Source: an uncultured Bacteroidales bacterium
Lineage (GTDB): Bacteria > Bacteroidota > Bacteroidia > Bacteroidales > FEN-979
Direction: 5' to 3'
Length of the DNA: 64,000 nucleotides
Assembly (NCBI GenBank): GCA_903945175.1
Contig: CAJAUM010000008.1
Coordinates: 1-64,000, forward strand
In this document: piece by piece, positions 17,882 to 57,384 of the stretch
How the letters are laid out: each line of letters opens with the position of its first letter
Position numbering within the stretch: position 1 is the stretch's first letter
Made by a program: the position numbers and the translations under genes
Notes under the pieces: model-generated
The model's database searches: none
Told to the model about the DNA's origin: nothing
Seen by the model: only the letters and a program-made list of their open reading frames with translations

Positions 17882-17990
17882 TTGTGGCTGAAGCACGACA
17901 CCGATTTTGCATATTTTACTACAAAACCTCATGCTTCTTTCAAAATTTGGATTTTCTATCAGAAAGAGAAGGCCGTGAGGGGTTATTCAG

Positions 17991-18022
17991 TTTGGATTCT
18001 TCTTATTTCGGAAGTAATTTTA
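17991..18022 (+). promoter_or_regulatory. Candidate promoter of the biosynthetic operon (18079-27605)
   Basis: TTTG at 17991-17994, a 20-base spacer, then TAATTTTA at 18015-18022. This fits TTTG-N19-21-TAnnTTTG with one mismatch in the last base. It lies 56 bases upstream of the first ATG of the operon, and no other comparable site is seen between aspS and that ATG. Confidence 0.5.
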
Positions 18023-18078
18023 CGGTGAAAAAATGCATAACCACAAACACAAAAATCAGATTTCTAAACCGAATTAAG

Positions 18079-19782
18079 ATGAAACGAATTTTATTAAGCC
18101 GAGCATCAAAGAGCGTTTGCATTTCTGTAGTTTTTATTTTTATGAGTATTTTTCAAGGCTGCATGTACTATTACAAGGTACAAACCGTAACAAGGGTTTC
18201 CCCGGAAAATATAAATACAGGAGACTCTCTGAATAAATTTTTGATTTTACATCAGGGAAATTCAGCCTGGCGTATTTCAAACCCAGACATTGCACAAAAC
18301 ATGCTATCCGGGAACTTGTCTGTTTTGCCAAACAATTGTCAGCAGTATAAAACCAATCATCCCAACGGGAGTAACCGATATAAAAGAGATGATCGTATTC
18401 TTGTGCTTGATCAGGTACATCTGTACTTGCAGGATTCACTGGTTCCTGAATTCAAAACGGGTGATCATGTCAAAATTGACTTTTCAGCATTCAGCAAGGC
18501 AGAAAGATATATAAAAGCCAAAGGCCGTACCGCTGCGTCCTGGGTCGTTCCTGCTGTTGTCGTTGGACTGGGTATAGCTCTTGTGACAACAACTACGATT
18601 GCTGTATTAACCAAATCCTCTTGTCCTCTTGTTTATATTAAAAAGGACAGCAGCTTCAATTTTACAGGGGAAATTTTTGGAGGAGCCATCTATTCCTCTC
18701 TCGAACGACATGATTACCTGCCTTTGCCAGGTTTTAGTCCCTCAAAAAATCGATATGAATTAAAAATCACCAACGGGCTGCCCGAAATACAATACATCAA
18801 CCTTTCTGAATTATGGATTGTGAACCATCCGGAAAATGTAAAGGCACTGCCCGACCGCCAGGGATTGATCCATACGATTGAGATGCCAAAGGTTCCGACC
18901 GAAGCTGTATCATTGGCAAATTTCGACATTCTTCCATTGATCCAAACAAAAGACCAGCTTTGTTTCCAGTTTGATGAGGATGCCTCTCTCACCGGGGATA
19001 CCTGTGCCTTTAATACAGTTTTTTTTACGTTTCCCGTTCAGGAGAATGCAGATATTGGGAAACTGGTTATTTGTGCAGGAAATTCAATGTGGGGAGATTA
19101 TACTTTCGGAGAACTCACGAAATTATTTGGCAACAGGTACGAAGAATTTATCAGGTGGCAGGGAAAAAGGCCGCCCGATAAAACCCTTCAATGGAGGATG
19201 GACCAGCGGTTTCCACTGATGGTTTATCTTGAAACAGCTTCCGGCTGGCAATTCGTTGATTATTTTGATCTGATCGGTCCGTTAGGAGTGAGGGATATGA
19301 TTATGCCGATTGATTTATCCATGGCACTTTTTACAAAAACATCGGGCAACGGGAGGTCAATAAGGATCAAACTTGAATCAGGATTTAAGTTTTGGGATCT
19401 CGATTATGCAGCAATGGATTTTTCGATGGATACATTATTCATGGTTGACTATATACAGCCCACCTCTGCATTTACAGAATCAGGAAGGGATGTGACACAA
19501 CCTCTTTCAAAGGATGATGCAAAATATTATGTTCAGGAAAAAACAGGGGAGGAGGGATTGGTTGTTTATAAGGACAGCCCGGAGGTTCGGGGAATGAAAA
19601 AGTCGATTTTTTTACATACAAAAGGATATTACACCCATGTTCGTAACTATCCGAATCCGCCTGATAAAATGAAGCTCGAAACGTTCTTTATCCCCGGAAG
19701 ATTCAGCAAGTTCTCTTATGAAAACTATATTTCATTCAGGAAAAACAAAATGGTTTTTGTATCTGATCCAAGGGTACCATGA
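18079..19782 (+). CDS. Predicted lipoprotein of unknown function, first gene of the biosynthetic operon
   Basis: A 567-residue protein starting MKRILLSRASKS and running into a hydrophobic stretch that ends IFQGCMYYY, a lipobox-like sequence, so probably membrane anchored. A second hydrophobic, transmembrane-like segment (ASWVVPAVVVGLGIALVTTT) lies near residues 153-175. It is followed by SCPLVYIKKDSSFNFTGEIF and GGAIYSSLERHDYLPLP. The C-terminal two thirds look beta-rich. I do not recognise a family. I chose the ATG at 18079; an open frame continues upstream to 17884 but has no signal-peptide features and crosses the likely promoter. Its stop overlaps the radical SAM start (ATGA), so the two are translationally coupled. 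Confidence 0.72.
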   Translation: MKRILLSRASKSVCISVVFIFMSIFQGCMYYYKVQTVTRVSPENINTGDSLNKFLILHQGNSAWRISNPDIAQNMLSGNLSVLPNNCQQYKTNHPNGSNRYKRDDRILVLDQVHLYLQDSLVPEFKTGDHVKIDFSAFSKAERYIKAKGRTAASWVVPAVVVGLGIALVTTTTIAVLTKSSCPLVYIKKDSSFNFTGEIFGGAIYSSLERHDYLPLPGFSPSKNRYELKITNGLPEIQYINLSELWIVNHPENVKALPDRQGLIHTIEMPKVPTEAVSLANFDILPLIQTKDQLCFQFDEDASLTGDTCAFNTVFFTFPVQENADIGKLVICAGNSMWGDYTFGELTKLFGNRYEEFIRWQGKRPPDKTLQWRMDQRFPLMVYLETASGWQFVDYFDLIGPLGVRDMIMPIDLSMALFTKTSGNGRSIRIKLESGFKFWDLDYAAMDFSMDTLFMVDYIQPTSAFTESGRDVTQPLSKDDAKYYVQEKTGEEGLVVYKDSPEVRGMKKSIFLHTKGYYTHVRNYPNPPDKMKLETFFIPGRFSKFSYENYISFRKNKMVFVSDPRVP

Positions 19783-20951
19783 AAACTGAATACACAACAC
19801 ATCCACAGCAAGTAATTACCGGAATCCGGAAAAAATTGATCCGGCTCGGAGTTGGTTTTCATATGGCCAGAATTGCTTACAGCATCTGCAAGAGTCCGGT
19901 TGTGTGTATTAAAGCGCTTACAAAGCTCGCCAAGCACCGGAGGGACTATGCAGGCGAGATGATTAAGAAAATCGTTCGTGTCGATGGAAAATATTACTGG
20001 GACTTGTACATTCCGGGTTATCAATCGGAGGCCATCACCAATTTTTTTATCGGAGAAACGAACAGGACCTTAGGTACAGATAAAAACACGATACGTTTCA
20101 CCAATATTTTAATTGCCATTACCAAACGATGCCCGCTGAAATGTGAACATTGTTTTGAATGGGATGCTTTGAATGGCAAGGAAACACTGACTTTACCCGA
20201 TATTAAAAACATTGTTGGAAAATTTCAGGAAATGGGGACGGGGATCATTCAATTAACCGGTGGAGAACCCCTGATGAATGTCGATGACCTCCTTGAAATT
20301 TTAAAGTCATCTAAATCAGGAACAGCATTTTGGATATTTACCTCCGGGTATAATCTGACCCGGGAAAATGCAATGAAACTTAAGCAGGCTGGATTAACAG
20401 GGGTTGTAATAAGTATGGATCATTTTGACCCCGACGCGCACAATCAATTCCGTGGCGCACATAAATCGTTTGAATGGGTTCAGTCAGGTGTTAAAAATTC
20501 AATTGAAGCCAACCTTGTCACGGCTCTTTCAATATGCGTATCAAAATCATTTGTTACGGAATCAAATCTTATGACCTACGCAAACCTGGCAAAAAACATG
20601 GGTGTTTCCTTTATACAGATTCTTGAGCCGAGGGCTGTAGGACATTACAATGGCAAGGATGTTTTGCTGGATGCAGGGCATGAAAAAATCCTCGAATCAT
20701 TTTATTTAAAAATGAATTATCAAAAAAGATACAGAAAATTTCCGATCGTGTGCTATCACGGGTATTATCAGAGGAAAACCGGATGTTTTGGTTCCGGAAA
20801 CAGAAGTTTGTATGTGGATACGGATGGCAATCTGCATGCATGTCCATTTTGCCGGACCAAAATGGGAAGTGCATTATCAGATGACCTGGATCGTGATATT
20901 GAACAATTGAAAGAGGCGGGATGTCATGAATTTAAAACTTCAAATTTCTGA
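19779..20951 (+). CDS. Radical SAM protein
   Basis: A 390-residue radical SAM enzyme. The cluster motif CPLKCEHC (Cys118, Cys122, Cys125) binds the SAM-cleaving [4Fe-4S] cluster. IIQLTGGEPLMNVDDL follows as the GGEP SAM-binding motif. A Cys-containing C-terminal region (TGCFGSGNRSLYVDTDG, then LHACPFCRTKMG) resembles SPASM or twitch extensions that bind extra clusters. The first 105 residues are an unfamiliar helical and beta extension before the barrel. It is coupled to the lipoprotein gene (ATGA overlap) and lies 36 bases before the adenylation/aminotransferase/reductase fusion. The substrate is unknown; modification of the lipid or amine product of the operon is an inference. Confidence 0.85.
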   Translation: MKTEYTTHPQQVITGIRKKLIRLGVGFHMARIAYSICKSPVVCIKALTKLAKHRRDYAGEMIKKIVRVDGKYYWDLYIPGYQSEAITNFFIGETNRTLGTDKNTIRFTNILIAITKRCPLKCEHCFEWDALNGKETLTLPDIKNIVGKFQEMGTGIIQLTGGEPLMNVDDLLEILKSSKSGTAFWIFTSGYNLTRENAMKLKQAGLTGVVISMDHFDPDAHNQFRGAHKSFEWVQSGVKNSIEANLVTALSICVSKSFVTESNLMTYANLAKNMGVSFIQILEPRAVGHYNGKDVLLDAGHEKILESFYLKMNYQKRYRKFPIVCYHGYYQRKTGCFGSGNRSLYVDTDGNLHACPFCRTKMGSALSDDLDRDIEQLKEAGCHEFKTSNF

Positions 20952-20987: not shown

Positions 20988-23900
20988 ATGAAATTCACAG
21001 AAAGGATTACCATGAAAAAATTTGATATCTCACTGGAATCCCCATTAAAGCTTTCCTCTGAAAAACCAAAGACAATAGGCCAAATACTTTACGATGAGCT
21101 GCCTTCAAGGAGGCTAAATGACCGTATTATCCTGAGTCATATTGAAACGAAATACACCGAGATTAGCTTACTTAAACTCCGGTTTATTGTTTCAAACCTT
21201 TTGTCTGATTTTACCCGGCATGGCATTAACTACCGTGATACCGTTGTTTTATTAAACTTCCCGGGATGCAATGAAACGTACACCGCCTTATTTTTTCTGG
21301 CACTGGTTACAAGAGGTTGCAGGGTTTTTCTTCCGATGTTTTCAGAAACGGTTGAATTTGACAACTGGCTGGAGGTGGCCAACGTCAAACATATCATTCT
21401 TCCCGAGGGAGAGGTCATGAGCCTCGAGGGACATGACAGAGAGAAGGATTCTATTAAGGCCATCCGAAAGATAGCAGGGTTACGGACGATACCACTCCTT
21501 GATATCCTCACCGATTTCGGTTTCATGACAGATATTAATAAAGAGTCCATTTCCGGACAGCCTGTATCCGGCGAGGTTTTAAGATCGTTAGAACAGGTTG
21601 TGCCCTCTGATGAGGCCCTCATTATAACCACCTCCGGCACTACTGGTCATTCAAAACTGGTAGTTTATACCCATGAGGCCTATTGGCTCAATTGCATGGC
21701 ATGGCAACAAGCCGGATTTTACAATATGGATTCGCTTGGCGGAACAGGGTTCACACCCCTGTTCACCCATACCATGGGAATAAGGGCTTTTCTCAATGCC
21801 TTGTGGACCGGCTCGCCGGTGTGTCTTATCATTACAGAGTGGTTTACACGCAAACCGGAAACGGTCAGGTATCTTCTATTGAAAATGAAACCGGCCCACA
21901 TTACAGGCGGACCGGCAGTTTACAATTTATTTCTGGAACTTTATCGTCTTTACCCGGAACTAAAATCTACCCTATCGCTACATTTAAAAACACTGGTTTC
22001 AAGCGGAGCGGGGTATAATCCTGTTACCGCACAGGGGGTCTATGATGCCATCGGCCTGAAGCTTCACAATGCGTTTGGAACCACGGAAACCCAACAGGTG
22101 TTTTCTACCCTGTTGAGTAAAAGTAATATCTTCGGCCATGGATTATTACCCCTGGGCAGTTTGTTACCTGGAGTCTCAGTGGGTCTTATTGGTTCGGATA
22201 CTATCGCAAATAGCTATCATCTGTATCTGCGCTCGGTGTTTGGCTATAATAATTGTATCGGAGAAAATGAGAAGGAGGATTATTTTGACACAGGAGATAT
22301 TGTTTCTTTGACAGAAGATAACAGCTTGTTGTTTATCGGACGTGCCAACAGGGACTTTTTCAAGGACAATTTCGGAGTAAAAATACCTGTTCTTGCATTG
22401 AAAGAGTATTATCACGAATTATATAACCAGATTCTTCATGCTGAGTATTATCCCATGGTCAATTTTCCTGGGTTATCTGCAATCCTTTTTATTGAAGAGA
22501 TGGATTTGCCGAAAGGAATCATCAACGATTCTTCTGTTTTGAAAAAATATGCCGGTATTATCAAAGGAATAAACGACCACCTTAAAAACCGGATTGAGCC
22601 ATTTGAATTTTTCCACCGGCACATTTGCAGGATTGCCATTGTCAACCAACCTCCTCCGTGTACACGAAAGGGCACTATCTCTTCGAGGGAGATCCATTTA
22701 GCATTTGGAGAGTTGATAGAGCGCCTTGAAGATGCGAGGAAAGATACCAGGGGAATTGAGATTACCGAAAGTCAATACCAGTCGACAGACAAATATTCAA
22801 GGTACATCAGTCCGCAAATTGGCATGATGCTATCCGCATTGAAGATGAACATGGTTTTTCATGGTGGGAAAAAGGACTCATTGTTCACCTTTATCCGGGG
22901 GAAAGAGACGGCCATATTGGATATGGCGGGTGGATATGGGACAAACCTGGTTGGCCATTCAAATAACCGTATCAATGAAGCCATCATTTCGTTTTTATCA
23001 TCTGGCAGCGTGTCCCTAAACAACCAGTTGAGCATTCCTCATTACACGGGGTTGACTGCCGAAAAACTCAGCCTGATGGTCGGACAGAAAACAGGAAAAA
23101 GCTACAAAGTATTGTTTGGAAACAGTGGTTCGGAAGCTGTTGAAATCGCCCTTCATCATGCCCTTTTTGAATGGAGAAAGCGGATCGAGAAACTGCGGGA
23201 TCTCCAGCTTCAGATGTATGGCAGTCTTACATACCTTGATGTTGCCGGGATCTGGCAAAAGAACGATGAGATTGTAAGGCAGGCTCAGGTTCGTATGATA
23301 ACGCTCAACGGAGCTTTTCACGGGCACAGCACTGCCGCCCGCAGCGGATTGGGCAATCAGAAGAAACGCATCGTTTTTTCCAACCTGCCTAAGATTGAGG
23401 CTGTTTTTTTGGATGATCGCGGAGAGGACTGGCAATTCCAGGTCAGGAAAATTCTTGACAAATCATTTATTCTGCTTGAGAAGGTAATGCAGACCAATGG
23501 ACACGCAGAGATTGAGTCATTCAGGATCAGTACGGTTATTGCCGCCCTGGTCGAACCGATCATAGGCGAAGGAGGGGTAAGGAACGTAAATCCGGAAGTA
23601 ATGGAACACCTTGCAGGATATGAGTTTCCTCTGATTGCCGATGAAATCCAATGCGGACTGGGGCGTAATGGGCAATTTCCTGCATTTAAAAATGCAGATT
23701 ATTACCTTTTTGGCAAAGCGCTTGGAGGAGGCGTTGAGAAGATTTCTGCTGTGTTAATCGACAGTCAAAGGTTTCGGTTCGATTTCAGTGAGAATTATGT
23801 CAGTACTTTCGGGAATGGAGAGCTTGCTGCACTTGCCGCGCTGAAGACACTCGAAATCATTGAAGATGAAAATCTGGCTGAGCGGGCTGCCCGGATCGGA

Positions 23901-25403
23901 GATTATCTTATCAAGGAATTATTGAAAATTCGCGACAAATATCGTTCAGTAATTCGGGATGTAAAGGGAGAAGGAGTCATGTTGGGCGTTTCTTTCAACC
24001 CCAACTGTGGTTCAGAGAACGTGATGCTCAGGGCATTGTTTAACACCGAAAAGGCCGGGTATTTATTCTCTGCCTGGTTTTTTCATAAGCACAGGATCAG
24101 GGTTTTTCCAACGCTTTCTGCGCCTGATACGCTTCGGATCGAGCCGTCAGCCTTTCTTACTGAGCATGAGGCAAACTGGTTTTGCCAGGCACTGGAGGAT
24201 CTTTGCCATCTACTGTATGAAAAAAAAGTGTATGACCTTTTTTCATTCCTGATGGATGACGATCCTTTTGATGACAATAAAGGTTCATCCCCGGAAATCG
24301 GATACTATCAGACTGTCCTGGAGAATCCTGACCCCGGAGCGAAAAAAGTCGCATTTATTGCCCATCTGGTCAATCCGGTGAATGAATTGCGGATGCTGGA
24401 ACCCGATCTTTGCCGTGCATCGGATACCGGTCTGCGCATTCTCTTCAACCGCATGCAATTGTTGATGGAGATGAAGCCGTTCCGGTTGATCGCCAATAAT
24501 CTTTTTAACGGCAAGATTCATTTTTCTTTTTATATCCTGCCAGTTGACTCCGCAGAACTGGAGCATCTGCATAAGAGCGGGAAAACCAGGAGGGTAATTT
24601 CCAAGATCCAGGAAGCGGTCAACATGGCTGCAAGGGACGGGGCTTCGGTCGTAAGCCTTGGTGGTTACACTTCGATTCTAACCTGCAACGGAATGTCGCT
24701 GGCGGAACCCGCCAGTTGCCGCATCATTACCGGGAATACACTGACTGCGGCTTCCGGGCTGATAAACCTTCGGAAACACCTCTTGGCAAGTCCTGAATTT
24801 CAAAAGCCGGAAAAAATTGCGATTGTTGGTGCCACGGGAAATATAGGCCAGGTGATCGCTGAAATGATCAGCACGCAGGAGGACATTTGCTCAAGTTTAC
24901 TTCTGGTTGCCCGTTCGGCAAAAAGGCTGGATGCTATCGCAAAGGAGCTGGAAAAGAAAAAGTCGCCGAGTATCAGGATTGAAACCAGTACCGAATTGTC
25001 TGTATTGAAAACGGCCGACATCCTTATCATTTGTGTAAACACCAACGACCCCCTGATTTACTCACATCACATTTCAAAAGAAAAGCCGGTACTTATTTCC
25101 GACCTTTCGGTTCCATCGGCATTGGCAAAAGAGGCGGCATTGCTGCGCAATGTGATCAGCCTGCCATTTTCTGCCTATGTGTGCATGCCAGATGATCAAG
25201 GGGCTGTGATCAGCTCCTTATCTCCAGCAGGGACAGTATTCTGTTGTGCCGGTGAAGTGATGCTGCTGGGACTTGAGCACTGCCCGTTTCCGTTAAAGGG
25301 ACATCTGCTTCCTGATTCATTGAAAACAATATCAGAGATGGCAAAAAAGCATGGTTTTTTCAATCATCTTGGGACCATTAAAAGTTATAAAGCAACTACC
25401 TGA
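20988..25403 (+). CDS. Trifunctional fusion: acyl-adenylating domain, class III aminotransferase, acyl-ACP-reductase-like domain
   Basis: A 1471-residue protein with three enzyme domains. (1) Residues 30-575, AMP-binding: TTSGTTGHSK (214-223), NAFGTTET (361-368), YFDTGD (432-437), GRANRDFF, and a late lysine in TRKGTI (561). (2) Residues 600-1075, PLP class III aminotransferase: GNSGSEAVEIA, GAFHGHS, LIADEIQCGLGRNG (Asp885) and Schiff-base Lys910 in FGKALGG. (3) Residues 1118-1465, like cyanobacterial fatty acyl-ACP reductase: AFIAHLVNP, VVSLGGYTSIL, ITGNTLTA, GATGNIG (NADPH), LLLVARS, and Cys1420 at the place of the acyl-binding Cys of that family, then EVMLLGLE and KHGF. No phosphopantetheine carrier motif is seen. 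The set could convert an acid to an aldehyde and then to an amine. The ATG at 21012, preceded by AAAGGA, is an alternative start. Confidence 0.85.
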   Translation: MKFTERITMKKFDISLESPLKLSSEKPKTIGQILYDELPSRRLNDRIILSHIETKYTEISLLKLRFIVSNLLSDFTRHGINYRDTVVLLNFPGCNETYTALFFLALVTRGCRVFLPMFSETVEFDNWLEVANVKHIILPEGEVMSLEGHDREKDSIKAIRKIAGLRTIPLLDILTDFGFMTDINKESISGQPVSGEVLRSLEQVVPSDEALIITTSGTTGHSKLVVYTHEAYWLNCMAWQQAGFYNMDSLGGTGFTPLFTHTMGIRAFLNALWTGSPVCLIITEWFTRKPETVRYLLLKMKPAHITGGPAVYNLFLELYRLYPELKSTLSLHLKTLVSSGAGYNPVTAQGVYDAIGLKLHNAFGTTETQQVFSTLLSKSNIFGHGLLPLGSLLPGVSVGLIGSDTIANSYHLYLRSVFGYNNCIGENEKEDYFDTGDIVSLTEDNSLLFIGRANRDFFKDNFGVKIPVLALKEYYHELYNQILHAEYYPMVNFPGLSAILFIEEMDLPKGIINDSSVLKKYAGIIKGINDHLKNRIEPFEFFHRHICRIAIVNQPPPCTRKGTISSREIHLAFGELIERLEDARKDTRGIEITESQYQSTDKYSRYISPQIGMMLSALKMNMVFHGGKKDSLFTFIRGKETAILDMAGGYGTNLVGHSNNRINEAIISFLSSGSVSLNNQLSIPHYTGLTAEKLSLMVGQKTGKSYKVLFGNSGSEAVEIALHHALFEWRKRIEKLRDLQLQMYGSLTYLDVAGIWQKNDEIVRQAQVRMITLNGAFHGHSTAARSGLGNQKKRIVFSNLPKIEAVFLDDRGEDWQFQVRKILDKSFILLEKVMQTNGHAEIESFRISTVIAALVEPIIGEGGVRNVNPEVMEHLAGYEFPLIADEIQCGLGRNGQFPAFKNADYYLFGKALGGGVEKISAVLIDSQRFRFDFSENYVSTFGNGELAALAALKTLEIIEDENLAERAARIGDYLIKELLKIRDKYRSVIRDVKGEGVMLGVSFNPNCGSENVMLRALFNTEKAGYLFSAWFFHKHRIRVFPTLSAPDTLRIEPSAFLTEHEANWFCQALEDLCHLLYEKKVYDLFSFLMDDDPFDDNKGSSPEIGYYQTVLENPDPGAKKVAFIAHLVNPVNELRMLEPDLCRASDTGLRILFNRMQLLMEMKPFRLIANNLFNGKIHFSFYILPVDSAELEHLHKSGKTRRVISKIQEAVNMAARDGASVVSLGGYTSILTCNGMSLAEPASCRIITGNTLTAASGLINLRKHLLASPEFQKPEKIAIVGATGNIGQVIAEMISTQEDICSSLLLVARSAKRLDAIAKELEKKKSPSIRIETSTELSVLKTADILIICVNTNDPLIYSHHISKEKPVLISDLSVPSALAKEAALLRNVISLPFSAYVCMPDDQGAVISSLSPAGTVFCCAGEVMLLGLEHCPFPLKGHLLPDSLKTISEMAKKHGFFNHLGTIKSYKATT

Positions 25404-25411
25404 ATTTCAAA

Positions 25412-26521
25412 ATGAAACCGCTGTACAATTTTGGTTTATCACAGGAAGATCCAATTACTGAGATCAAGGGATTGGATCTCGCCGATGGTGATTCGCTGCT
25501 TTGTATTGCAGGTGCCGGAGAGGTTCCGCTATGCATTGCTGCGTTGAAAAATGTATCGATCGTGGCGGTGGATACTTCGGAAGATCAGCTTCGGTTATGC
25601 CGCATTAAACAGCAGTCGGCGATAATTCTTGAACCTCGGGTCGCAGCAGGATTTCTGGGATATACAAAGATGGCCGGTAAAAGACGGGAAAAAATTTTTA
25701 AGAATAAGATCGTCCACTCGATAATTAAGGAAGATGTGGATTATTGGAGAAAAAATTCAAAAGCCATCAGGAAAGGAGTTATCCATGCCGGAAAATTTGA
25801 ACAATTTATCAGCAAAGCCTCCCTGCCAGGCCGGTTGATCATTGGGAAGAAGAATTTTTACCGGTTGTTTGAATGCAATACAATCAAAGAACAGGAGGCG
25901 GTCTTTGACAGGTTTTTCGCCAGGATTCTGTTGAAAATAATTTTTAAAGCGGTATTTCATCCGCGCATTTATAAAAACAGGGGGATTGATGAAGCTGGAA
26001 TGCTGCATCATTCGACAGGGAACATAGGAGATTTCTTTTTCAACCGGTTTCGCAATTTCTGCTGTAGTACCCTGGCGCATGATAATTTTTTACTTCAGTA
26101 TGTTTTTTTCAGGCAATCCTTGTTTCCCGGAGCATTACCGGAGTACCTCAAAATAGAAAACCATGCAACATTCCTTCGGAACCAGCGCCAAATCTTGTTT
26201 GTTTCATCCAAAATCGAACATGTTTTATCCCAGGCGCAGCCAAGGCGATTTAATAAAATCCTCTTATCCAACATTGGCGACTGGATGTCAAAAGATTCCA
26301 TGGCCAGGCTGTTAATGGATATTCAGGGAAAAACCCAATCGGGAAGCAGGGTAATCATGCGTCACATTTACCTTGAACATCCAATTCCGACATCAACACC
26401 GTTTTTAAAACCCGACCGCAATCTGGGGGAAGAACTTATAAAATCAGACCGGTTTCCATTCAGTTCCGTGGTTCCCATTCAACACATCAAGCATGAGCAA
26501 CTACCTGATCAAACCCATTGA
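25412..26521 (+). CDS. DUF3419/BtaA-like SAM 3-amino-3-carboxypropyl transferase
   Basis: A 369-residue protein of the DUF3419 family. It begins MKPLYNFGLSQEDPITEIKG. The SAM-binding region has CIAGAGEVPL (residues 31-40) and VAVDTSEDQLRLCRIKQ (51-67). Near the end LSNIGDWMS and HIYLEHP are further family-like blocks. The characterised member BtaA moves the 3-amino-3-carboxypropyl group of SAM onto diacylglycerol in betaine-lipid synthesis. No BtaB-type N-methyltransferase follows here, so a finished betaine lipid is not implied. It begins 8 bases after the trifunctional gene, and the next gene overlaps its end by 29 bases. The acceptor could be a lipid alcohol or the amine made by the upstream enzyme; this is inference. 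Confidence 0.8.
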   Translation: MKPLYNFGLSQEDPITEIKGLDLADGDSLLCIAGAGEVPLCIAALKNVSIVAVDTSEDQLRLCRIKQQSAIILEPRVAAGFLGYTKMAGKRREKIFKNKIVHSIIKEDVDYWRKNSKAIRKGVIHAGKFEQFISKASLPGRLIIGKKNFYRLFECNTIKEQEAVFDRFFARILLKIIFKAVFHPRIYKNRGIDEAGMLHHSTGNIGDFFFNRFRNFCCSTLAHDNFLLQYVFFRQSLFPGALPEYLKIENHATFLRNQRQILFVSSKIEHVLSQAQPRRFNKILLSNIGDWMSKDSMARLLMDIQGKTQSGSRVIMRHIYLEHPIPTSTPFLKPDRNLGEELIKSDRFPFSSVVPIQHIKHEQLPDQTH

Positions 26522-27605
26522 TTATACCTGGAACAGGACGATGCTGGATATCCTCAGAGGTTCCCCCATCGTGACCGACCGGATGACTGTGTGCTTCGAC
26601 AGGCAGCCGGATCTTTTTGCTTTGGCCCGGTGCAAATTCGATGATTTTTTTTACAGCGGACTTTTTGATGGAGATACCCTCAAAGGATTCGGTATGGTTG
26701 GATATCATACAGTATTGGTGAATGGGGAGCCAACCGAAGTCTTTTGTGGTAGGGATTTGTATATCCTTCCGGAGGCAAGGGGAAACGGGTTCATCGCTAA
26801 AAGTACAGAAGGTCACTTTCAGGAAAACCGAAATCGTGCAGTGATAGGATATGGCCTGATCATGCATGGAAATAAGGCAAGCCTGAGGTTAGTCGGAAGA
26901 AGACCCGAAGGCAACAGTTATTCACCCAAATCGCGCATCATTAACAAATTGCTTGTCAAAACGATATTGCTTGCAAGGCCTGTTTCCCCGGCCCAGAAGT
27001 ATAAGATCAGACGGGCACAAATGGAAGATATCCCTGTTATCGTCAGGCTCCTGAACAAGGAGCACAGCGCGCGATTATTCGGCAATATTTATTCGGAAGC
27101 CTCTTTTCCTTTTTACCTGCAAAGAAATACAGGATTGGAAATATCAGATTATTTCGTCGCATTTGGCAGTGACGGAAAATGTTGCGGGGTTTGTGCAGCA
27201 TGGGATTTGAGCCTGATGAAACAAACCAGGGTACTGCAATACGGATTATCTTTTCTTCCTGCACAAATTGCGTACAAGTCATTTTCGGTTTTATTTAACC
27301 GCCCACCCCTTCCAAAACCCGGCGATCATTTCAGGGAGGTGACGATAACGGATTATGCTGTGATCGGACGTAATCCGGAAATAATGAACGCCCTGTTAAG
27401 GACTGTTTACAGGGAATACAGGCAATCAGGTTATCATTTCATGATCTGGGGAAGTTCCATTGATGACCCCTTGTTAGCAGCGGCCAAAGGGTTTATGAGT
27501 CAACATGTTATTTCAAACATTGTTTTGTTTTCAACGAATGACGAATGGCTTGGAGAGGGAGTGGTAAAAAACAATTTGCCCTATATTGATGTATCAGCTA
27601 TATAA
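26493..27605 (+). CDS. Protein with two GNAT-like acyltransferase domains
   Basis: A 370-residue protein. The first GNAT-like half (residues 1-150) has the acyl-CoA motif ILPEARGNGFIAKSTEGHF (about 90-108), then YGLIMHGNKASLRLVGRR. The second half starts at about residue 168 (YKIRRAQMEDIPVIVRLLNKE) and resembles a GNAT N-terminus, with a final conserved-looking strand FMIWGSSIDDPLL. Proteins of this shape often N-acylate amines or amino acids. It overlaps the DUF3419 gene by 29 bases and closes the operon, which suggests it acylates the amino product of the pathway. Substrate and acyl donor are unknown. Confidence 0.7.
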   Translation: MSNYLIKPIDYTWNRTMLDILRGSPIVTDRMTVCFDRQPDLFALARCKFDDFFYSGLFDGDTLKGFGMVGYHTVLVNGEPTEVFCGRDLYILPEARGNGFIAKSTEGHFQENRNRAVIGYGLIMHGNKASLRLVGRRPEGNSYSPKSRIINKLLVKTILLARPVSPAQKYKIRRAQMEDIPVIVRLLNKEHSARLFGNIYSEASFPFYLQRNTGLEISDYFVAFGSDGKCCGVCAAWDLSLMKQTRVLQYGLSFLPAQIAYKSFSVLFNRPPLPKPGDHFREVTITDYAVIGRNPEIMNALLRTVYREYRQSGYHFMIWGSSIDDPLLAAAKGFMSQHVISNIVLFSTNDEWLGEGVVKNNLPYIDVSAI

Positions 27606-29896: not shown

Positions 29897-32800
29897 TTAA
29901 TCAGCACTGATTCTTATTCCTTCCGAATGCGCTGAAAATTCTGGTGCATACATGCATTGGATGGTCGTAATTCCGTTTGAATACGCTCCTGATGAATTCA
30001 CCTTTAGGCCATACTCAAATACAAATGTGCCCTTTGGCAGGTAGTCGAAGAAGAAGTTCGTAGCCAGGTCGGTTGTGCTCTGATAGTAGCCAAGTCCATC
30101 CTGATAATGGTAACCAGAAAGACCATCTCCCGATTGAGGCTGAAAAAAATTACCCGGTGAGCTACCCGCTGAAGAGACTATGTAAGGTTCAAAAGCAGAG
30201 GCCCGCATATCCTTCATGTGCACGAACTCCAGGTCGCGATCGACTGTTAGTATGATGCGGACCTTCAGCTTATCACCTATTTTCAGCGAGGTGGAATTTG
30301 CATTATCGCTCATTATTGGTTCAAGTACCGGTCCGGATGGCGTGTTTCTTTCTACAAATAATCTCTTATCCAGCTTCATGGGGGTGGCCGCAGGAGTTAT
30401 TTTGTCGAGATTTTCGAAATATTGCCAGTATAGCGCTCCCCAGGCAATACCCACTGTGGATTTGGATATTGTTACCTTTCCCATTTCAGGTTTAATCTGA
30501 TTTCCAGACCACGATACCTGAAAATATCCTGTTCCTGACTCTTTTTCACTATCAATCAGTTTGTCAGAATTGATTTTTTCCTTTCCAACTGCAATTTTAA
30601 CGCCTGGTTCATCTGAGAGTAAATCGGTTCCCCGGAGCAGCAGGGCATAGCAAGCTTCAGCTGTTGCTCTTGGAGAATGCCAATCCTGGGTTTGCTTTTG
30701 CTTCAACAGCCAAATTTTCATATCTTCAACAGCCTTTTCATCCCGGGCAATCTCATCGAATACTTCAATCATCAGCGCCTGTGTTTCGATTGGGGCCTGA
30801 TACCAGGAAAATCCTGATTTTTCAGCCCAGTACATCCCCATTTCACTTGAATGAAGCGCTTTTTCAGAGAGCGATTTGATGATCAGGTCCGGGGTCACTT
30901 TGTTTTCAAGACGGTTTAAGGCCAGGGCGATCATACCCTGCAGGTGGCGATCATACTGCAGCCAGTATTTTGCAGCCTGTTCCCTGTAGTAATTGAAAGA
31001 TTCCAAAAATTTCGCACCCGGATCGGGTATCGGGAACCGCGCATCGTTCATGAAATAACTTCTGGCATACAAATACTGAATCTGCGTGGTACCAAGATGG
31101 TTGTGGTTCAGATATCCAGAATCATGTTGTTTTTGTTTTTCAAGGTCCCTGATCAGCTCCTGATCTAAATATTGAATTCCCCTTACAATCATTTTCCAGG
31201 TTTCCGGATTTTTCCGTATGGCCGTGATTCCAATCTGGTCAAGATGTCCCATCCCGGTAATGATGTTTTGAGTAATCCAACGATTTTCAGGCATGCCTGC
31301 GAACCAGGTCCACCCCCCATTCGGGGTTTGCAATTTCTTTAGCTTATTGAGATTTTCCCTCAGACTGGCTTCCAGATTATTCATGTCGAAATAGAGGCCA
31401 AGCTTTTGTTTTCGTTCAGTTTCGCTTTTGGCATCCATCACCCAGGGCGTCTCCTGTAATATCGCCGATTTCAGCTCCTGGTTTTTTGACAGGTTTGATG
31501 TAAGGGTATTGGGAGAAAGGTTTTTCCATGCTTCAAAGACAGCTTTGATTTTTGGATTGGAATTGGCTATGAAGGCGGCAAGCGTGTTCGACCAGAAGGC
31601 GGCAAAAATGGCATCAGCATTTTCATATTGATATGTGTTTAGGGCGGGTAATGCCTGGATGGCATACCAAGCCGGGTTTGAAGCAAATTCAAGTGTGAGT
31701 TTATAGTTTTGTCGGGTGTCATTCTTTTGACCTGGCGACCCGGATTTCAACAGTTTATCAAACTCAAATTCTGTCGTTCCTTTGCCACGTACAGGCAAAG
31801 GAAGTGACTCGGTGACCATCATCCGATTTGTCAAAACGGGAATGGCTTTTTCCTCCCCATCACTGAAATTTTCTGATACCGCCATTATCCTGTACTGAAG
31901 GACAGCGGATCCGGAATTGACAGGAATAAATAGTTTCCAGGATATTAGACAGCTTTGGTCTTTTTTAGCATGAAAAATTTTTTCATCAGGCTGCATTCCG
32001 GGCTTGGATCTCCAGGCAGTATCTATCCAGTTATTGAGTGGCTGAAGGGTTATTGCATCAAACAGGTCAAGATTCACAACACCTGAAAGGTCGCGGTCGG
32101 CCAGGTTAACCACTTTAGCGCTGAAAATAACCGTGTCACCCTGACGCACAAAGCGTGGTGTATTGGGGAATACCATGAGGTTTTTCCTTGTGACCAGTTC
32201 TTCCTTCAGCAGCCCGTATTCGAGATTCTTTGTATGTGCCAGTCCCAGCAACTTCCATTTGGTCAGCGATTCAGGTGCGGTGAATTGCAGGATCAGGCTG
32301 CCGGTTGAATCAGTGGAAAGGGCGGGATAGAAAAAGGCTGTTTCCCTGAAATCATTTCGGAACCGGATGGTTTTTACATCCAATGATACCGGAATCCTGC
32401 CATGCGCTGAACTATTTAACGAGTCGCCACTTACGACCTGATCAGGAACATTCACGGCGTCCTGCTTCATTGCAGTTGGGGGCATCATTTCAGAAGTTTG
32501 CATTCCTTCATTGGCGGGGCTTTCCATCATTTCCATTCCACTCCCCTTTGCTCCTACACTCCGTTCGTAACGAATCTGGCGGCCGGATCCTCCAAAATAA
32601 TTTAAGCCAAACCAGTTTAATTGTAATCCCGGATGAAACACATAATTTTCATTACCGGAGAGAGGTGAATACCATTGTCCGGAGTTGATTCTGAATGCAT
32701 TGTTCACATCCCAGGAATAAAGCCCCGAATAGCGCTGATAGAGGTCAAATGCCCATTCATTGGACCGAAACAGGTCGAGTGAGGCATCGTACATCCCTGC

Positions 32801-35800
32801 GAGGAATTCGGCATCGGCCGGTTTGCCGTTTGCGGCAGAGATCCTTATTTTCCAACTTTCGTTTGCACCAGGATCTAATTTGTTCCGGAAGGATTCAAAG
32901 GCGATATCCAATTTCTTATTGGCATAGGGAACATTGACAAGCTGACTATTTTGAAATACCCTGTTGTGCCTCACAAGCAAGAAATTCACTGCAAAGTTTC
33001 CCCTGTATTGCTCCTTGATGGGAATTTCGACGATCATGGCCCTGTTGTTCAGTTTGATCAGTTCACGTGAAACCAGGCTATCGCGAAACCTGATTTCGTA
33101 AATTACCTGAACCTCATTTTCTTTTGAGCCAATGAAGAAACTGGCATTCTCACCAGGCTCACCGCTTGTTTTCAAGGGCACAAACCAGTTGAGTGTGTTT
33201 ACGGGCACCACTTTTGATAATGGAGAAAACGCTGTGAGAAATAATTTCTTTTCAACCACCTCCCCAAACGGGTCGGTAGCTTTCAGAATCAGGAGATAAG
33301 GACCGGGAGGCAGGATGTCGGATACTGCAGAATTAATTTTCAGAATGGAATCAGTTCGTGTATTCACCTGTTTTTCGAAAATAATCTTTTCCCTACTCCA
33401 TGTTGAAGGGTCGTTTTCGTTTCCATAAATGCCAAAGGGATATTGGGTATAGAATTCCTCACGGGTCATAAGTGTTGTATCGGGGCGTTCCCACGGCCGT
33501 GGTTTAAATAACCGGCTGGGCTGACTGAGTTTTTGCAGCGTGACAGCCACCATGGTTGGCGTTGGACGTCCATTCAGATTGGTTGCAGTGATTTTTATTG
33601 TACTGTCTTTGGACAAGTTGACCATTTCGGTTATGTTCGTTCCGATGGAAAGGGCTTGATATCCTACTGTAACAGTTTGCTGCAGCGATTGGGTTTCACC
33701 ATTGAGATCGGTAATATCTGTATAGATTGCAAAATCAAAGACCGGCCGGGATTCTTTATCAGATGCCGCATCGGGGGTGGCTATAAACACAAAGCTAAAT
33801 TTCCCTGAAGCATCAGTCGCAGTGATCCCATTGGTGATTTCCAGTTGTGGTGAAGAGGGCATGGGTCTTCTCCAGCCCCAATCCCAATAGGGAAATCTGG
33901 CTGAACGAACCACACGGTATTTCACAGCAGCCTCTCCGATGGCATTTCCTGCATAGGCCGTAGCTATTCCTGTAACAGTAATTGCCTCGCCCAGCCGGTA
34001 ATTCCCCTCCAATGGCTCACATTCAACTTCGAAAGTTGGGCGCTTATATTCCTCCACGGATATTTGCGTAGCACCCGATTCATTTGCGATGGTCATTTGC
34101 CCCAATAAAACGCTCTGCGGGGCGGTAAATGAACCGTTAAACGAACCGAATTCATTGGTAGTGAAAGTTTGTTCGCTGATCTTCTGACCATTCGCATCTG
34201 AAAAAATGACCTTCGTAGGCTGATTTATTTTAATCTTAGCATTGTCCCCGGTTCTTGCCACGATAATGCCCTTGAAATAAATAATATGGCCCGGTCGGTA
34301 TATGGCCCGGTCGGTATAAAACATGGTTTGAAGTCTCGTAAATTCCTTCGCGGCATAAACAGGATACTGGTAAAAATTATCGGTTATCAGGAAATCATTC
34401 TTATAATGGACCTTTAAAAACAGACTTGAATTTCGCCGGTTATCACCAGAAGGCGGAATCAGGAAGAAGCCATTCCCATCTGAAGTATAATCCAATAATT
34501 TGACCGTTACATATTGGCGTTCCCGATAATTATAGTTTTTTTCCCAGACCTCTGCTTTTGCATTATTTAGTGGCATTCCGGTCTCCCGGTCGAGGAGAAA
34601 ATAACCCAGGCTGCCGTCTTCATTGCGCTTGCTTATATAGCTTATCTGTGTTGACCAAAACGGGGTGTAGGAATAGACCTGTTTCGGATCGTTAAAATCA
34701 TTGGATAGGGCGCACAAAAGCACCCAAAAGCCTTGGGCAACTCCCGGGATGCCGATTTCAGCGCGATGTATCTGGAAGTCTCCATCAGAAGGAAAATTCT
34801 GGGTCCATGTCCGGGCTGACGGCAAGGATGCCAAATACTTATAATAGCCGGCCGGATCCAGTTTTCCAGATTTTTCAGCGTATGCTTCCGGGTCAGTTTT
34901 GATGAGGCGGAAACAGAGTTGTTTAATATTTTTGAACTCAACCAGTGCAAGGGAGGGTTTCTCAACAGGAACTGCAGATTCGGATGTTACCCGAAGTACT
35001 GTTTCTTTGATTGACCTTGCCAGGATTTTACAATTTTTAGCTCCTTCGGAATCAGGAAAGCGTTTGACGGCCTTCTCGCACAACTCCATTGCTGAGCGTA
35101 TATCCCATTTATGCCTAATTGAACCAAGGGGTTGATAAAGCTGACCCTGTTTATTCAGAAAGTCGGCAAGGGCATAGGAAACAGATGTTCCCCAGGGAGA
35201 ATTGAGATGTACCTGATCAAACCGCTTCAAGGCATTAATAAAAAGGCTATCTTTTTCCGGAAGAGTATATTCTTGGTGTACAAATGCAAATCGTTTCAAT
35301 TCCGTTTCTATCAATGCACGGGGATCCTTATCCAGAAGATGAAAAGCAGCCAGATCGCGAAAAATACGCAATGCAAAGCTTGAAAGCGATGCTGAATCTG
35401 CGGGAATCATCATCTTGTTGCGGACGAAATTGAGGGTTTGGTCAAAGTATATTATTTGATCGACCTGAAAGCGCTGTGCGGGAATTAAAGGTGTTCCCAT
35501 ATCTGATGTAAAAAATTCAAGGGCGCGGCCAGCAAGAAAATCATACAGGGTGGGGGTGAATTTGGCTGCTTCTGCCAACTGAGCCTCCTGCTTTTTATCT
35601 GCAAAAATCTTCCGGTCCAGGATTGGTTCAAACCGGCCGATGGGAATACCGTTTAATGAATCAGGATTCTCAAGCGACGACAGGTATGATCGGGTGATGG
35701 CGCGATAGATTGTAGCGAGATCCCATGTTTCGATGCTGTCGTGGAGGTTGGCCCTGACAGGAGTCCGGTCGCGAAAACGATATTGGTTATTCTGATAGTA

Positions 35801-36169
35801 CTTCCAATATACCTCTGCCAGAATTGACAGCAGCACCTGCTTTACCGGTTGAGGTGCAGCATGGACCTCCTTGCGCAATTCCCCTATGGTTTGGACCAAG
35901 TAATTTTCCTGGAATTCGGAATTGAGACGAATCCGATATATAATGGCCTTGATAAATTGCGGATCGTTTTTTACAGCCCTGGTCTGGTGATAGATATTGT
36001 TCACAACTGCCAGCGCTGATTTTGGCTGGCCTAAGTTGGTAAGAGAATCGACCTGTTTCCATAAAGCAGGGAAGTGTTGAGATGGGGAAATGGTGGAATG
36101 GAGTGAGGCTGAAATATGATTCAGAAAGAAAAATGAAAAGACCAGAAATGTACCAATCTTGATTTTCAT
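29897..36169 (-). CDS. Alpha-2-macroglobulin-like protein lacking the thioester site
   Basis: A 2090-residue exported protein with signal peptide MKIKIGTFLVFSFFFLNHISA. After an N-terminal region of about 400 residues come macroglobulin domains, including the MG2 signature FYTDRAIYRPGH near residue 615. The central A2M domain has ESLTKWKLLGLAHT, and the C-terminal helical thioester domain has PNGGWTWFAGMPENRW. In classical members this domain starts with Y-x-Y-x-C-x-E-Q, which forms a thioester. Here the aligned segment reads TYQYENADAIF, with Asn1517 for Cys and Ala1520 for Gln. It therefore cannot trap proteases covalently through a thioester. Such proteins sit in the periplasm as protease traps or guards. 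No pbpC-like partner is adjacent. Confidence 0.88.
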   Translation of the reverse strand: MKIKIGTFLVFSFFFLNHISASLHSTISPSQHFPALWKQVDSLTNLGQPKSALAVVNNIYHQTRAVKNDPQFIKAIIYRIRLNSEFQENYLVQTIGELRKEVHAAPQPVKQVLLSILAEVYWKYYQNNQYRFRDRTPVRANLHDSIETWDLATIYRAITRSYLSSLENPDSLNGIPIGRFEPILDRKIFADKKQEAQLAEAAKFTPTLYDFLAGRALEFFTSDMGTPLIPAQRFQVDQIIYFDQTLNFVRNKMMIPADSASLSSFALRIFRDLAAFHLLDKDPRALIETELKRFAFVHQEYTLPEKDSLFINALKRFDQVHLNSPWGTSVSYALADFLNKQGQLYQPLGSIRHKWDIRSAMELCEKAVKRFPDSEGAKNCKILARSIKETVLRVTSESAVPVEKPSLALVEFKNIKQLCFRLIKTDPEAYAEKSGKLDPAGYYKYLASLPSARTWTQNFPSDGDFQIHRAEIGIPGVAQGFWVLLCALSNDFNDPKQVYSYTPFWSTQISYISKRNEDGSLGYFLLDRETGMPLNNAKAEVWEKNYNYRERQYVTVKLLDYTSDGNGFFLIPPSGDNRRNSSLFLKVHYKNDFLITDNFYQYPVYAAKEFTRLQTMFYTDRAIYRPGHIIYFKGIIVARTGDNAKIKINQPTKVIFSDANGQKISEQTFTTNEFGSFNGSFTAPQSVLLGQMTIANESGATQISVEEYKRPTFEVECEPLEGNYRLGEAITVTGIATAYAGNAIGEAAVKYRVVRSARFPYWDWGWRRPMPSSPQLEITNGITATDASGKFSFVFIATPDAASDKESRPVFDFAIYTDITDLNGETQSLQQTVTVGYQALSIGTNITEMVNLSKDSTIKITATNLNGRPTPTMVAVTLQKLSQPSRLFKPRPWERPDTTLMTREEFYTQYPFGIYGNENDPSTWSREKIIFEKQVNTRTDSILKINSAVSDILPPGPYLLILKATDPFGEVVEKKLFLTAFSPLSKVVPVNTLNWFVPLKTSGEPGENASFFIGSKENEVQVIYEIRFRDSLVSRELIKLNNRAMIVEIPIKEQYRGNFAVNFLLVRHNRVFQNSQLVNVPYANKKLDIAFESFRNKLDPGANESWKIRISAANGKPADAEFLAGMYDASLDLFRSNEWAFDLYQRYSGLYSWDVNNAFRINSGQWYSPLSGNENYVFHPGLQLNWFGLNYFGGSGRQIRYERSVGAKGSGMEMMESPANEGMQTSEMMPPTAMKQDAVNVPDQVVSGDSLNSSAHGRIPVSLDVKTIRFRNDFRETAFFYPALSTDSTGSLILQFTAPESLTKWKLLGLAHTKNLEYGLLKEELVTRKNLMVFPNTPRFVRQGDTVIFSAKVVNLADRDLSGVVNLDLFDAITLQPLNNWIDTAWRSKPGMQPDEKIFHAKKDQSCLISWKLFIPVNSGSAVLQYRIMAVSENFSDGEEKAIPVLTNRMMVTESLPLPVRGKGTTEFEFDKLLKSGSPGQKNDTRQNYKLTLEFASNPAWYAIQALPALNTYQYENADAIFAAFWSNTLAAFIANSNPKIKAVFEAWKNLSPNTLTSNLSKNQELKSAILQETPWVMDAKSETERKQKLGLYFDMNNLEASLRENLNKLKKLQTPNGGWTWFAGMPENRWITQNIITGMGHLDQIGITAIRKNPETWKMIVRGIQYLDQELIRDLEKQKQHDSGYLNHNHLGTTQIQYLYARSYFMNDARFPIPDPGAKFLESFNYYREQAAKYWLQYDRHLQGMIALALNRLENKVTPDLIIKSLSEKALHSSEMGMYWAEKSGFSWYQAPIETQALMIEVFDEIARDEKAVEDMKIWLLKQKQTQDWHSPRATAEACYALLLRGTDLLSDEPGVKIAVGKEKINSDKLIDSEKESGTGYFQVSWSGNQIKPEMGKVTISKSTVGIAWGALYWQYFENLDKITPAATPMKLDKRLFVERNTPSGPVLEPIMSDNANSTSLKIGDKLKVRIILTVDRDLEFVHMKDMRASAFEPYIVSSAGSSPGNFFQPQSGDGLSGYHYQDGLGYYQSTTDLATNFFFDYLPKGTFVFEYGLKVNSSGAYSNGITTIQCMYAPEFSAHSEGIRISAD
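34284..34318. repeat. 16-base tandem direct repeat inside the alpha-2-macroglobulin gene
   Basis: A 35-base stretch with perfect period 16 (unit TGGCCCGGTCGGTATA on the plus strand), just over two copies. Because 16 is not a multiple of three, the two copies are read in different frames; together they encode YTDRAIYRPGH, the conserved MG2 signature. Confidence 0.9.
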
Positions 36170-56129: not shown

Positions 56130-57341
56130 ATGCTCAAGCCAAACCTTCACTATTTCAGATTTGCCCTGCTTCTTATTTGTCTGGGATTGATCCCGGTCCA
56201 CGATGTCTGGGCCCAGCAGAAACCCTATGTAATCATGATCTCTTTTGATGGATTCCGTTGGGATTATCCGGAGAAGGCAGGGTTGAAGACCTTCGACAGT
56301 CTTGCAACAGTTGGTGTTAAGGCAGCCTTTCTGAAACCCGCTTTTCCATCGGTCACCTTTCCCAACCATTATACCATGGCAACCGGATTATATCCCGATC
56401 ATCACGGAATTGTGGCCAACAATTTTTACGATCCCGTCCTCGGCAAACGATATAGTATCGGTAACCGCAAAGCTGTTGAGGATTCCTCATTTTATGGCGG
56501 AGAACCCATTTGGGTCACCGCCGAGAAGCAAGGAATCCGGACTGCATCATTTTTCTGGGTGGGATCTGAGGCGCCGGTAAAGGGAATCCAACCCTCCTTC
56601 TGGAAGAAATACCAGGAAAAAACATCTTTTTCAGACCGGGTGGATACGGTACTGACCTGGCTTTCACTTCCTGAAAATCAACGCCCGCACCTTATTCTCT
56701 TTTATTATCATGAACCTGATGCATCGGGTCACAACCTGGGGCCCGAAAGTGAAGAGATAAAACCAGTATTGCAGGATCTGGATCGGAAATTGTCCGGTTT
56801 TATCCAAAAGCTTAAAACACTGTCCTACTTTCCTGAAATCAACCTGATTGTCACGGCCGACCATGGAATGCAGACCACGCCTGAGGACAAGGCAATTCTA
56901 TTGACTGATTACCTTGATCCCGGGCTATTCGACCGCATTGAGGGATCCTCACCCGTTTTACTTTTCAAGGCCAAATCAGGGAAGATGGATGAGGCCTATC
57001 AGGCACTGCTGAAAACACCCCATGTACAGGTGTGGAAATCGGCCATGGTGCCGGAAAAATTTCATTACGGCAAGAATCCGAGGAGACTCGATTTTGTCAT
57101 GCTGGCCGACAGCGCCTGGACACTTATACGGGATTCTGGCTATCCGAAGTCAAAAGGCGCGCACGGATACGATCCGGACAACATGAACATGCGTGCCATT
57201 TTTTATGCCGCAGGTCCGGCTTTCAAGCAGGGATATCGGTCGGAGGGCTTCAATAACATTGATCTCTATCCGTTGATTTCAAAAATCTTGGGACTCCGGC
57301 CTGCAGAGGTTGATGGAACAATCCCGATTTTCAGAAATTAA
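56130..57341 (+). CDS. Exported nucleotide pyrophosphatase/phosphodiesterase (NPP, alkaline phosphatase superfamily)
   Basis: A 403-residue enzyme with signal peptide (ending VHDVWAQ, residue 29). It hydrolyses phosphodiester or pyrophosphate bonds in nucleotides or lipids outside the cytoplasm. Metal and active-site motifs are ISFDGFRWDY (Asp40), FPSVTFPNHYTMATG (nucleophile Thr76, Asn79), GLYPDHHGI, YHEPDASGH, TADHGM and GAHGYDPDN. The frame is open back to 55911 inside the receptor gene, but the ATG at 56130 is the only one placed before a signal peptide. It lies just after the receptor terminator, so it must have its own promoter or depend on read-through. Confidence 0.92.
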   Translation: MLKPNLHYFRFALLLICLGLIPVHDVWAQQKPYVIMISFDGFRWDYPEKAGLKTFDSLATVGVKAAFLKPAFPSVTFPNHYTMATGLYPDHHGIVANNFYDPVLGKRYSIGNRKAVEDSSFYGGEPIWVTAEKQGIRTASFFWVGSEAPVKGIQPSFWKKYQEKTSFSDRVDTVLTWLSLPENQRPHLILFYYHEPDASGHNLGPESEEIKPVLQDLDRKLSGFIQKLKTLSYFPEINLIVTADHGMQTTPEDKAILLTDYLDPGLFDRIEGSSPVLLFKAKSGKMDEAYQALLKTPHVQVWKSAMVPEKFHYGKNPRRLDFVMLADSAWTLIRDSGYPKSKGAHGYDPDNMNMRAIFYAAGPAFKQGYRSEGFNNIDLYPLISKILGLRPAEVDGTIPIFRN

Positions 57342-57384
57342 TTGTAGATTTATACAGATTTTGGATCTGCTAAAACGCATGCAT

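Follow-up and report, generated by a model that had tools for sequence, protein, structure and literature searches.

In the biosynthesis of tambjamine YP1 in Pseudoalteromonas tunicata, a C12 acid is converted to a C12 amine with ATP, NADH and L-Glu by two proteins, the ligase-carrier PtTamA and the aminotransferase-reductase PtTamH, which between them provide fatty-acid adenylation, thioester reduction at a putative catalytic Cys and class III transamination (PMC9594044, PMC5939613). PtTamH is reported to be NADH-specific and not to use C12-CoA (PMC9594044), and PtTamA seemingly to work without CoA and not to load the E. coli acyl carrier protein (ACP; PMC5939613). PigE, an enzyme of prodigiosin MAP biosynthesis (NF053554; PDB 4ppm), first reduces a thioester and then aminates the resulting aldehyde, with channelling deemed likely by its authors, as for GluTR/aminomutase (PMC8341465). 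The pairing of a reductase with an aminotransferase is hence already known and assayed, in PigE (PMC8341465) and PtTamH (PMC9594044). Cyanobacterial acyl-ACP reductase (AAR; TIGR04058; PDB 6jzq, 6jzu), by contrast, is a stand-alone enzyme that hands its aldehyde to aldehyde-deformylating oxygenase (ADO). Here, we analyse a 64,000-nt stretch (the window) of contig CAJAUM010000008.1 from an uncultured Bacteroidales bacterium (GCA_903945175.1), in which a single gene encodes an AMP-forming ligase (A), a class III aminotransferase (TA) and a thioester reductase (TR), in this order (the fusion; Table 1).

Carboxylic acid reductases (A-PCP-R) likewise activate and reduce an acid within one chain. 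They contain a carrier domain, however, whereas the fusion has none and has an aminotransferase inserted instead; the reductase of those enzymes presumably belongs to a family other than that of TR. PtTamH has the TA-TR order of the fusion (compared by description, not by sequence), but the tambjamine system splits the work between two proteins and includes a fused acyl carrier domain, as opposed to one chain without a carrier. Both TR and TA of the fusion match PigE, in which the order is TR-TA and an A domain is missing. AAR is homologous to TR but stands alone, while the fusion carries an aminotransferase in the same chain. As the reductase-aminotransferase pairing is known, the novelty lies in the single-chain, carrier-free A-TA-TR layout and its conserved partner genes; the openly licensed literature yielded no single-chain A-TA-TR protein. 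We consider it likely that the fusion is a self-contained acid-to-amine converter, in which A activates the acid, Cys1420 serves in the reduction and Lys910 in the transamination.

Three catalytic domains in one uninterrupted frame

The original prediction, made from the letters of this DNA, had placed three complete catalytic domains in one 1471-residue chain. This held up: the frame is intact, the catalytic residues and all motifs listed at the time were found in place, and Pfam recovered AMP-binding (E = 9.8e-21), Aminotran_3 (residues 642-1045; 1.3e-46) and a Rossmann domain (Shikimate_DH, residues 1273-1389; 1.3e-9). Only the start calls for correction. Translation probably begins at Met9 (21012), giving 1463 aa, because Met9 is the first invariant column in an alignment of five fusion orthologues, because the frames of two of them (G019 and G014) open there (first start codon; 1463 aa), and because AGAAAGGA precedes it. 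The five orthologues align without internal gaps and with identical domain junctions.

The lysine and cysteine singled out as catalytic proved conserved throughout. The Lys910 column is Lys in 10/10 aligned TA domains (three being the fusion and orthologues) and is common to three PigE-type proteins, and the Cys1420 column is Cys in all 16 aligned TR domains, five of which are the fusion and its orthologues, and in which AAR of S. elongatus and PigE, sharing this column, are represented by stretches taken from phmmer matches. Within the TR nucleotide loop, the first and second glycines are present in 16/16 rows and the third in 11/16, that of the fusion included. The A-domain motifs (P-loop, GTTE, YFDTGD, GR and Lys561) occupy what we take to be their usual places in the superfamily, presumably with the usual roles. 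All three domains are under purifying selection, with loss seen in none: pN/pS amounted to 0.13-0.27 in 30/30 domain-by-pair comparisons among the five orthologues, although the dS values (1.03 to infinite) approach or reach saturation.

Table 1 Coordinates of the fusion gene, its domains and adjacent genes in the window
Feature	Position	Strand	Details
Radical SAM protein	19779..20951	+	390 aa; Pfam PF04055; directly upstream of fusion
A-TA-TR fusion gene	20988..25403	+	1471 aa; uninterrupted frame
A domain	21012..22712	+	residues 9-575; Pfam AMP-binding 123-397, five-orthologue alignment
A-domain motifs			TTSGTTGHSK P-loop 214-223, GTTE 364-367, YFDTGD 432-437, GR 451-452, Lys561 in TRKGT; five-orthologue alignment
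TA domain	22755..24266	+	residues 590-1093; class III PLP aminotransferase, Asp885, Lys910
TA-TR linker	24267..24341	+	residues 1094-1118, 25 aa; limits from blastp against Photobacterium TA-TR and Methylocystis PigE-type protein
TR domain	24342..25400	+	residues 1119-1471; GATGNIG 1281-1287, His1126, Cys1420
DUF3419 protein	25412..26521	+	369 aa; Pfam PF11899, E 5.2e-43, 148.1 bits (gathering 28.2); 8 bp past fusion
GNAT-like protein (label tentative)	26493..27605	+	370 aa; overlaps DUF3419 gene by 29 bp

Kinship of the reductase and aminotransferase domains

With respect to the C-terminal domain, the original prediction had it follow cyanobacterial AAR. The catalytic Cys and the glycine-rich loop of TR align to AAR, as expected for a member of the acyl-ACP reductase superfamily. 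However, PigE scores better: the last 356 residues of the fusion match the NCBIfam PigE model at 4.6e-21 (74.9 bits; curated cut-off 850) and the long-chain acyl-ACP reductase model TIGR04058 at 4.6e-17 (62.3 bits, below the curated cut-off of 449.7), and phmmer against the PDB returned PigE (4ppm) at 1.8e-10 and AAR (6jzq) at 4.2e-8. The entire fusion reaches 241.3 bits against the PigE equivalog NF053554, again below the cut-off of 850. A profile placing this domain outside the AAR family, the outcome named at the time as refuting the prediction, was thus obtained by half: TR lies inside the superfamily and outside the curated equivalog TIGR04058. Judged by these scores, TR is an AAR relative nearer to the thioester-reductase part of PigE.

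Phylogeny likewise separated TR from S. elongatus AAR: the fusion grouped with the TA-TR proteins of Photobacterium and of genome G567 on a 95/98 branch, although branches in this tree are long and the program flagged that grouping as possible long-branch company. The TA tree placed the fusion with the same two proteins (branch 100/98). With TamH-type proteins, the fusion shares a class III TA followed by an AAR-like TR with a catalytic Cys (TamH order from PMC9594044).

A likely acid-to-amine converter

In the proposed reaction, the A domain would use ATP to activate a carboxylic acid as its acyl-adenylate, a fatty acid being the most likely substrate, and Cys1420 of TR would receive the acyl group by way of CoA or of a carrier protein that stands alone. 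There, the thioester would be reduced by NAD(P)H to an aldehyde. Through pyridoxal phosphate (PLP) on Lys910, TA would transfer to this aldehyde the amino group of L-Glu or another amino acid, yielding a primary amine before the aldehyde can escape. This is the series predicted at the outset (acid, activated acyl, aldehyde, amine), and it remains the best-supported reading by homology to the assayed PigE, PtTamA and PtTamH, on whose analogy the three reactions and their order rest. A one-protein route from a free acid to a primary amine is sought after in biocatalysis. PMC9594044 describes a natural route that depends on two fusion proteins plus a phosphopantetheinylated carrier; should the fusion work with CoA or without a carrier, this requirement would fall away.

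Several observations weigh against this reading. The fusion shares only about 22-30% identity (blastp) with PigE-type and TA-TR proteins, and a TA-TR protein from Rhodovulum fell outside the fusion's group in the trees. The predicted structures had a mean pLDDT of 43.9 for the A domain (9-620) and 39.8 for TA-TR (600-1471), from only five close rows, and were too poor for use. Three other aminotransferase genes of the same genome outscore the fusion against the PigE profile (247-359 bits), and 14/14 control genomes contain matches to it; the TA part by itself thus shows no special resemblance to PigE, its fold being common and its company the telling feature. As for the A domain, it matched no plasmid record at 1e-5, and its best NCBIfam match, a general amino-acid-adenylation domain, reached 59 bits against a cut-off of 317. 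Finally, the CoA route is weakened because PtTamH did not accept C12-CoA (PMC9594044).

Since the A domain is close to no characterised family and has no plasmid match at 1e-5, the acid substrate is not fixed. The same enzyme logic could serve an aryl, amino or modified acid in place of a plain fatty acid, or the amino product could cyclise as in prodigiosin MAP formation, a variant that we regard as rather unlikely. The amino-acid-adenylation match would suit it, as would the PDB matches of the A domain, all of them weak (2.8e-5 to 5.5e-4: salicylate-AMP ligase, Cfl, dihydroxybenzoate-AMP ligase and one AMP-dependent synthetase), and a benzoate-CoA ligase family protein (annotation; 32%) among the best matches to the A domain of a Leisingera fusion described below; PigE yields an amino ketone that cyclises (PMC8341465). 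On the other hand, long-chain-fatty-acid-CoA ligase models are also among the NCBIfam matches of the A domain, and TR sits in the fatty-acyl reductase superfamily. The gene following the fusion encodes a DUF3419 protein, a family that we take to be that of BtaA, a 3-amino-3-carboxypropyl transferase using S-adenosylmethionine (SAM). BtaA, reviewed as catalysing SAM-dependent aminocarboxypropyl transfer, makes lipid head groups (PMC10491745), which again argues for a fatty acid.

The absence of a carrier domain, noted already in the original prediction, was borne out. PF00550 had no match in the chain, which sets the fusion apart from TamA-type (ANL-ACP) proteins, and the A-TA (562-586) and TA-TR (1094-1118) stretches each comprise about 25 residues and therefore leave no room for such a domain. 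A rival possibility is that Cys1420 of TR itself attacks the acyl-adenylate, dispensing with CoA and carrier protein altogether. Besides the short linkers, this would be in line with the genomic context, as the five fusion genomes together gave 47 PF00550 matches (E up to 1e-3), none on a fusion-bearing contig, although at 37-95 kb these contigs would miss a more distant carrier gene. Similarly, PF00550 had no match on two of the five Leisingera plasmids (the two searched), a negative for plasmid sequence. Yet short PF00550-matching frames (84-126 aa), that is, stand-alone carriers, occur off the fusion contig in 5/5 fusion genomes, and AAR uses acyl-ACP or acyl-CoA (PMC9743570). We hold direct transfer to be unlikely and keep to an acyl group delivered by CoA or a stand-alone carrier.

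Distribution and a second fusion

Single-chain full-length orthologues were found in at least five of the 149 genomes searched (up to three candidates scored per genome), the one studied here included, and the four others are 72-79% identical to it. A TR profile returned the same five among 43 family genomes, 32 of which are ≥90% complete and ≤5% contaminated. Searching genome contigs with two peptide patterns, which say nothing about distant A-TA-TR proteins, gave four near orthologues, three from uncultured Bacteroidales and one from a Bacteroidetes metagenome-assembled genome (MAG). The isolate names of the carriers (Loclat, AlinenLipids, LacPavin, Kiruna) suggest lakes. More widely, the TR profile matched 2/395 genomes of a phylum sample at 1e-12 (our genome and G342) and 6/395 of a class sample at 1e-8: our genome, G541 (stand-alone reductase), G342 (reductase in an operon), G567 (an 878-aa TA-TR protein), and, weakly, G177 (7.3e-10) and G201 (5.5e-9), where we would guess at glutamyl-tRNA reductases.

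While 781 plasmid records matched the fusion, none covered 80% of it. Five plasmid records of Leisingera encode a full-length protein of 1395 aa (WP_129373367.1 and relatives; the NJS201 copy is in two pieces) with the same three domains in another order. In strain NJS204, Aminotran_3 (32-425) is followed by TR (466-811), AMP-binding (912-1245) and AMP-binding_C (1297-1373), that is, TA-TR-A, so that A is C-terminal there and N-terminal in our fusion; Pfam detected no carrier domain in this chain either. The two A domains are only 21% identical over 271 aa. In the TR tree, the Leisingera protein fell outside the group of our fusion, and a tree joining its TR with ours was rejected (p-AU 0.0099); branches are long, however, and this comparison was chosen once the first tree was known. 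A-TA-TR and TA-TR-A thus probably arose separately, each by joining the same three activities. No paper on the Leisingera protein was found in the openly licensed literature.

On the plasmid of Leisingera sp. NJS204 (NZ_CP035421.1), the gene lies at L059:6440-10627, with pabB, an outer membrane lipoprotein-sorting protein, an MMPL transporter and an acyl-homoserine lactone (AHL) synthase within 42 kb. An unannotated megaplasmid of Photobacterium sp. DA100 carries the 978-aa TA-TR protein (L036:8977-11913) beside a beta-ketoacyl synthase (PF00109, 2e-6), its other neighbours being alike by eye. The G567 TA-TR protein (L049:4261-10914) is located near a cytochrome P450 (Pfam) and, by eye, radical SAM-like genes.

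Partner genes and a possible aminolipid

The two genes downstream of the fusion accompany it beyond the window. Profile searches placed the fusion, DUF3419 and GNAT-like genes all in the same five of 43 family genomes. Because the five orthologues are part of each profile, the informative result is the lack of matches in the remaining 38 genomes; linked inheritance of one block would equally give this co-occurrence. The GNAT-like protein itself had no significant Pfam match; the label derives from a PHROG acetyltransferase match at 0.0027 and from a distant homologue in G342 (tblastn 0.002; 22% identity) that matches PF00583 at 9.3e-9. In G342, which belongs to another order, a gene row (L033:8687-12661) comprises a GNAT gene, an ADO-like gene (PF11266, 9.9e-14), a stand-alone AAR-like gene and a DUF3419 gene. 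The association of reductase, DUF3419 and GNAT genes thus reaches past the family, with a different aldehyde-consuming partner. The G342 profile scores for DUF3419 and GNAT-like are inflated by G342 rows in the alignments, the independent values being tblastn 2.45e-29 for DUF3419 and 0.002 for GNAT-like.

In the later steps that we tentatively propose, the DUF3419 protein would add a 3-amino-3-carboxypropyl group from SAM to the amine, and the GNAT-like protein would then acylate the product to an N-alkyl-2,4-diaminobutyrate-type aminolipid. These two steps, drawn from the conserved gene block only, may apply, though we lean towards doubting them. The complete scheme, a three-gene pathway to a new aminolipid class in which a carrier-free A-TA-TR protein makes long-chain alkylamines (possibly by direct adenylate-to-Cys transfer), a BtaA-like protein alkylates the amine nitrogen and a GNAT-like protein acylates it, is improbable as a whole. 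Counting against it, neither the G567 and Photobacterium TA-TR loci nor the stand-alone reductase locus of G541 contains a match to the DUF3419 or GNAT-like protein of the window. The conserved partner genes nevertheless suggest that these Bacteroidota, for which the named relatives are uncultured, make an amine-containing lipid not yet described. For the BtaA-like family, an amine in place of diacylglycerol would be a possible new acceptor.

Alternatively, the block could make an ordinary homoserine- or betaine-type lipid through the BtaA-like protein, with the fusion serving another purpose. DUF3419 occurs in 29/395 class genomes (ours included) as compared to 6/395 for the TR profile, and hence mostly works without such a reductase, which favours this option and also speaks against the association of DUF3419 with the reductase. 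However, within the family DUF3419 was found only alongside the fusion, in the same 5/43 genomes; the genes in the window lie 8 bp apart or overlap; and Pfam named no methyltransferase among the 14 window genes tested (12165-36169). We judge this option unlikely. An assembly or frame artefact joining adjacent genes can be dismissed as next to impossible, for although four of the five fusion genomes are MAGs and ours is a 155-contig draft, five assemblies with the same uninterrupted frame, identical junctions and a gapless alignment refute it.

Neighbouring genes and other features of the window

Two upstream genes were considered as further pathway members. The radical SAM gene was rejected as a core member, being beside the fusion at only 2/5 loci (the window and G012). 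The 632-aa gene preceding it (17884-19782; lipoprotein-like by eye, no Pfam match) was not counted: homologues lie near three of the four other fusions (67, 22 and 21% identity), two of them just 21-22% identical.

Inspection of the best 12 DUF3419 loci in other Bacteroidia (L065-L076, leaving aside our locus and G342) revealed, by eye, a frame of ~485 aa before DUF3419 in 10 and a hydrophobic frame of ~230 aa after it in 11. The former contained a PEP-utilizers domain in the one case tested (L066), and the latter had no Pfam match in one tested. Locus L068 has a methyltransferase-like frame instead, and two of the 12 loci are cut by contig ends. In G598 (L057:8896-13395), a homologue of the GNAT-like protein adjoins a GH3-family gene, with a Rieske oxygenase close by; in Burkholderia arboris, the match to the GNAT-like protein lies within an unannotated stretch.

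Elsewhere, the window encodes an alpha-2-macroglobulin-type protein of 2090 aa (29897-36169) and a C10 peptidase with a Spi inhibitor domain and a Por secretion tail (57310-60021). Its G+C content is 0.31 at 1-2000, as compared to 0.41-0.52 in the remaining 2-kb steps.

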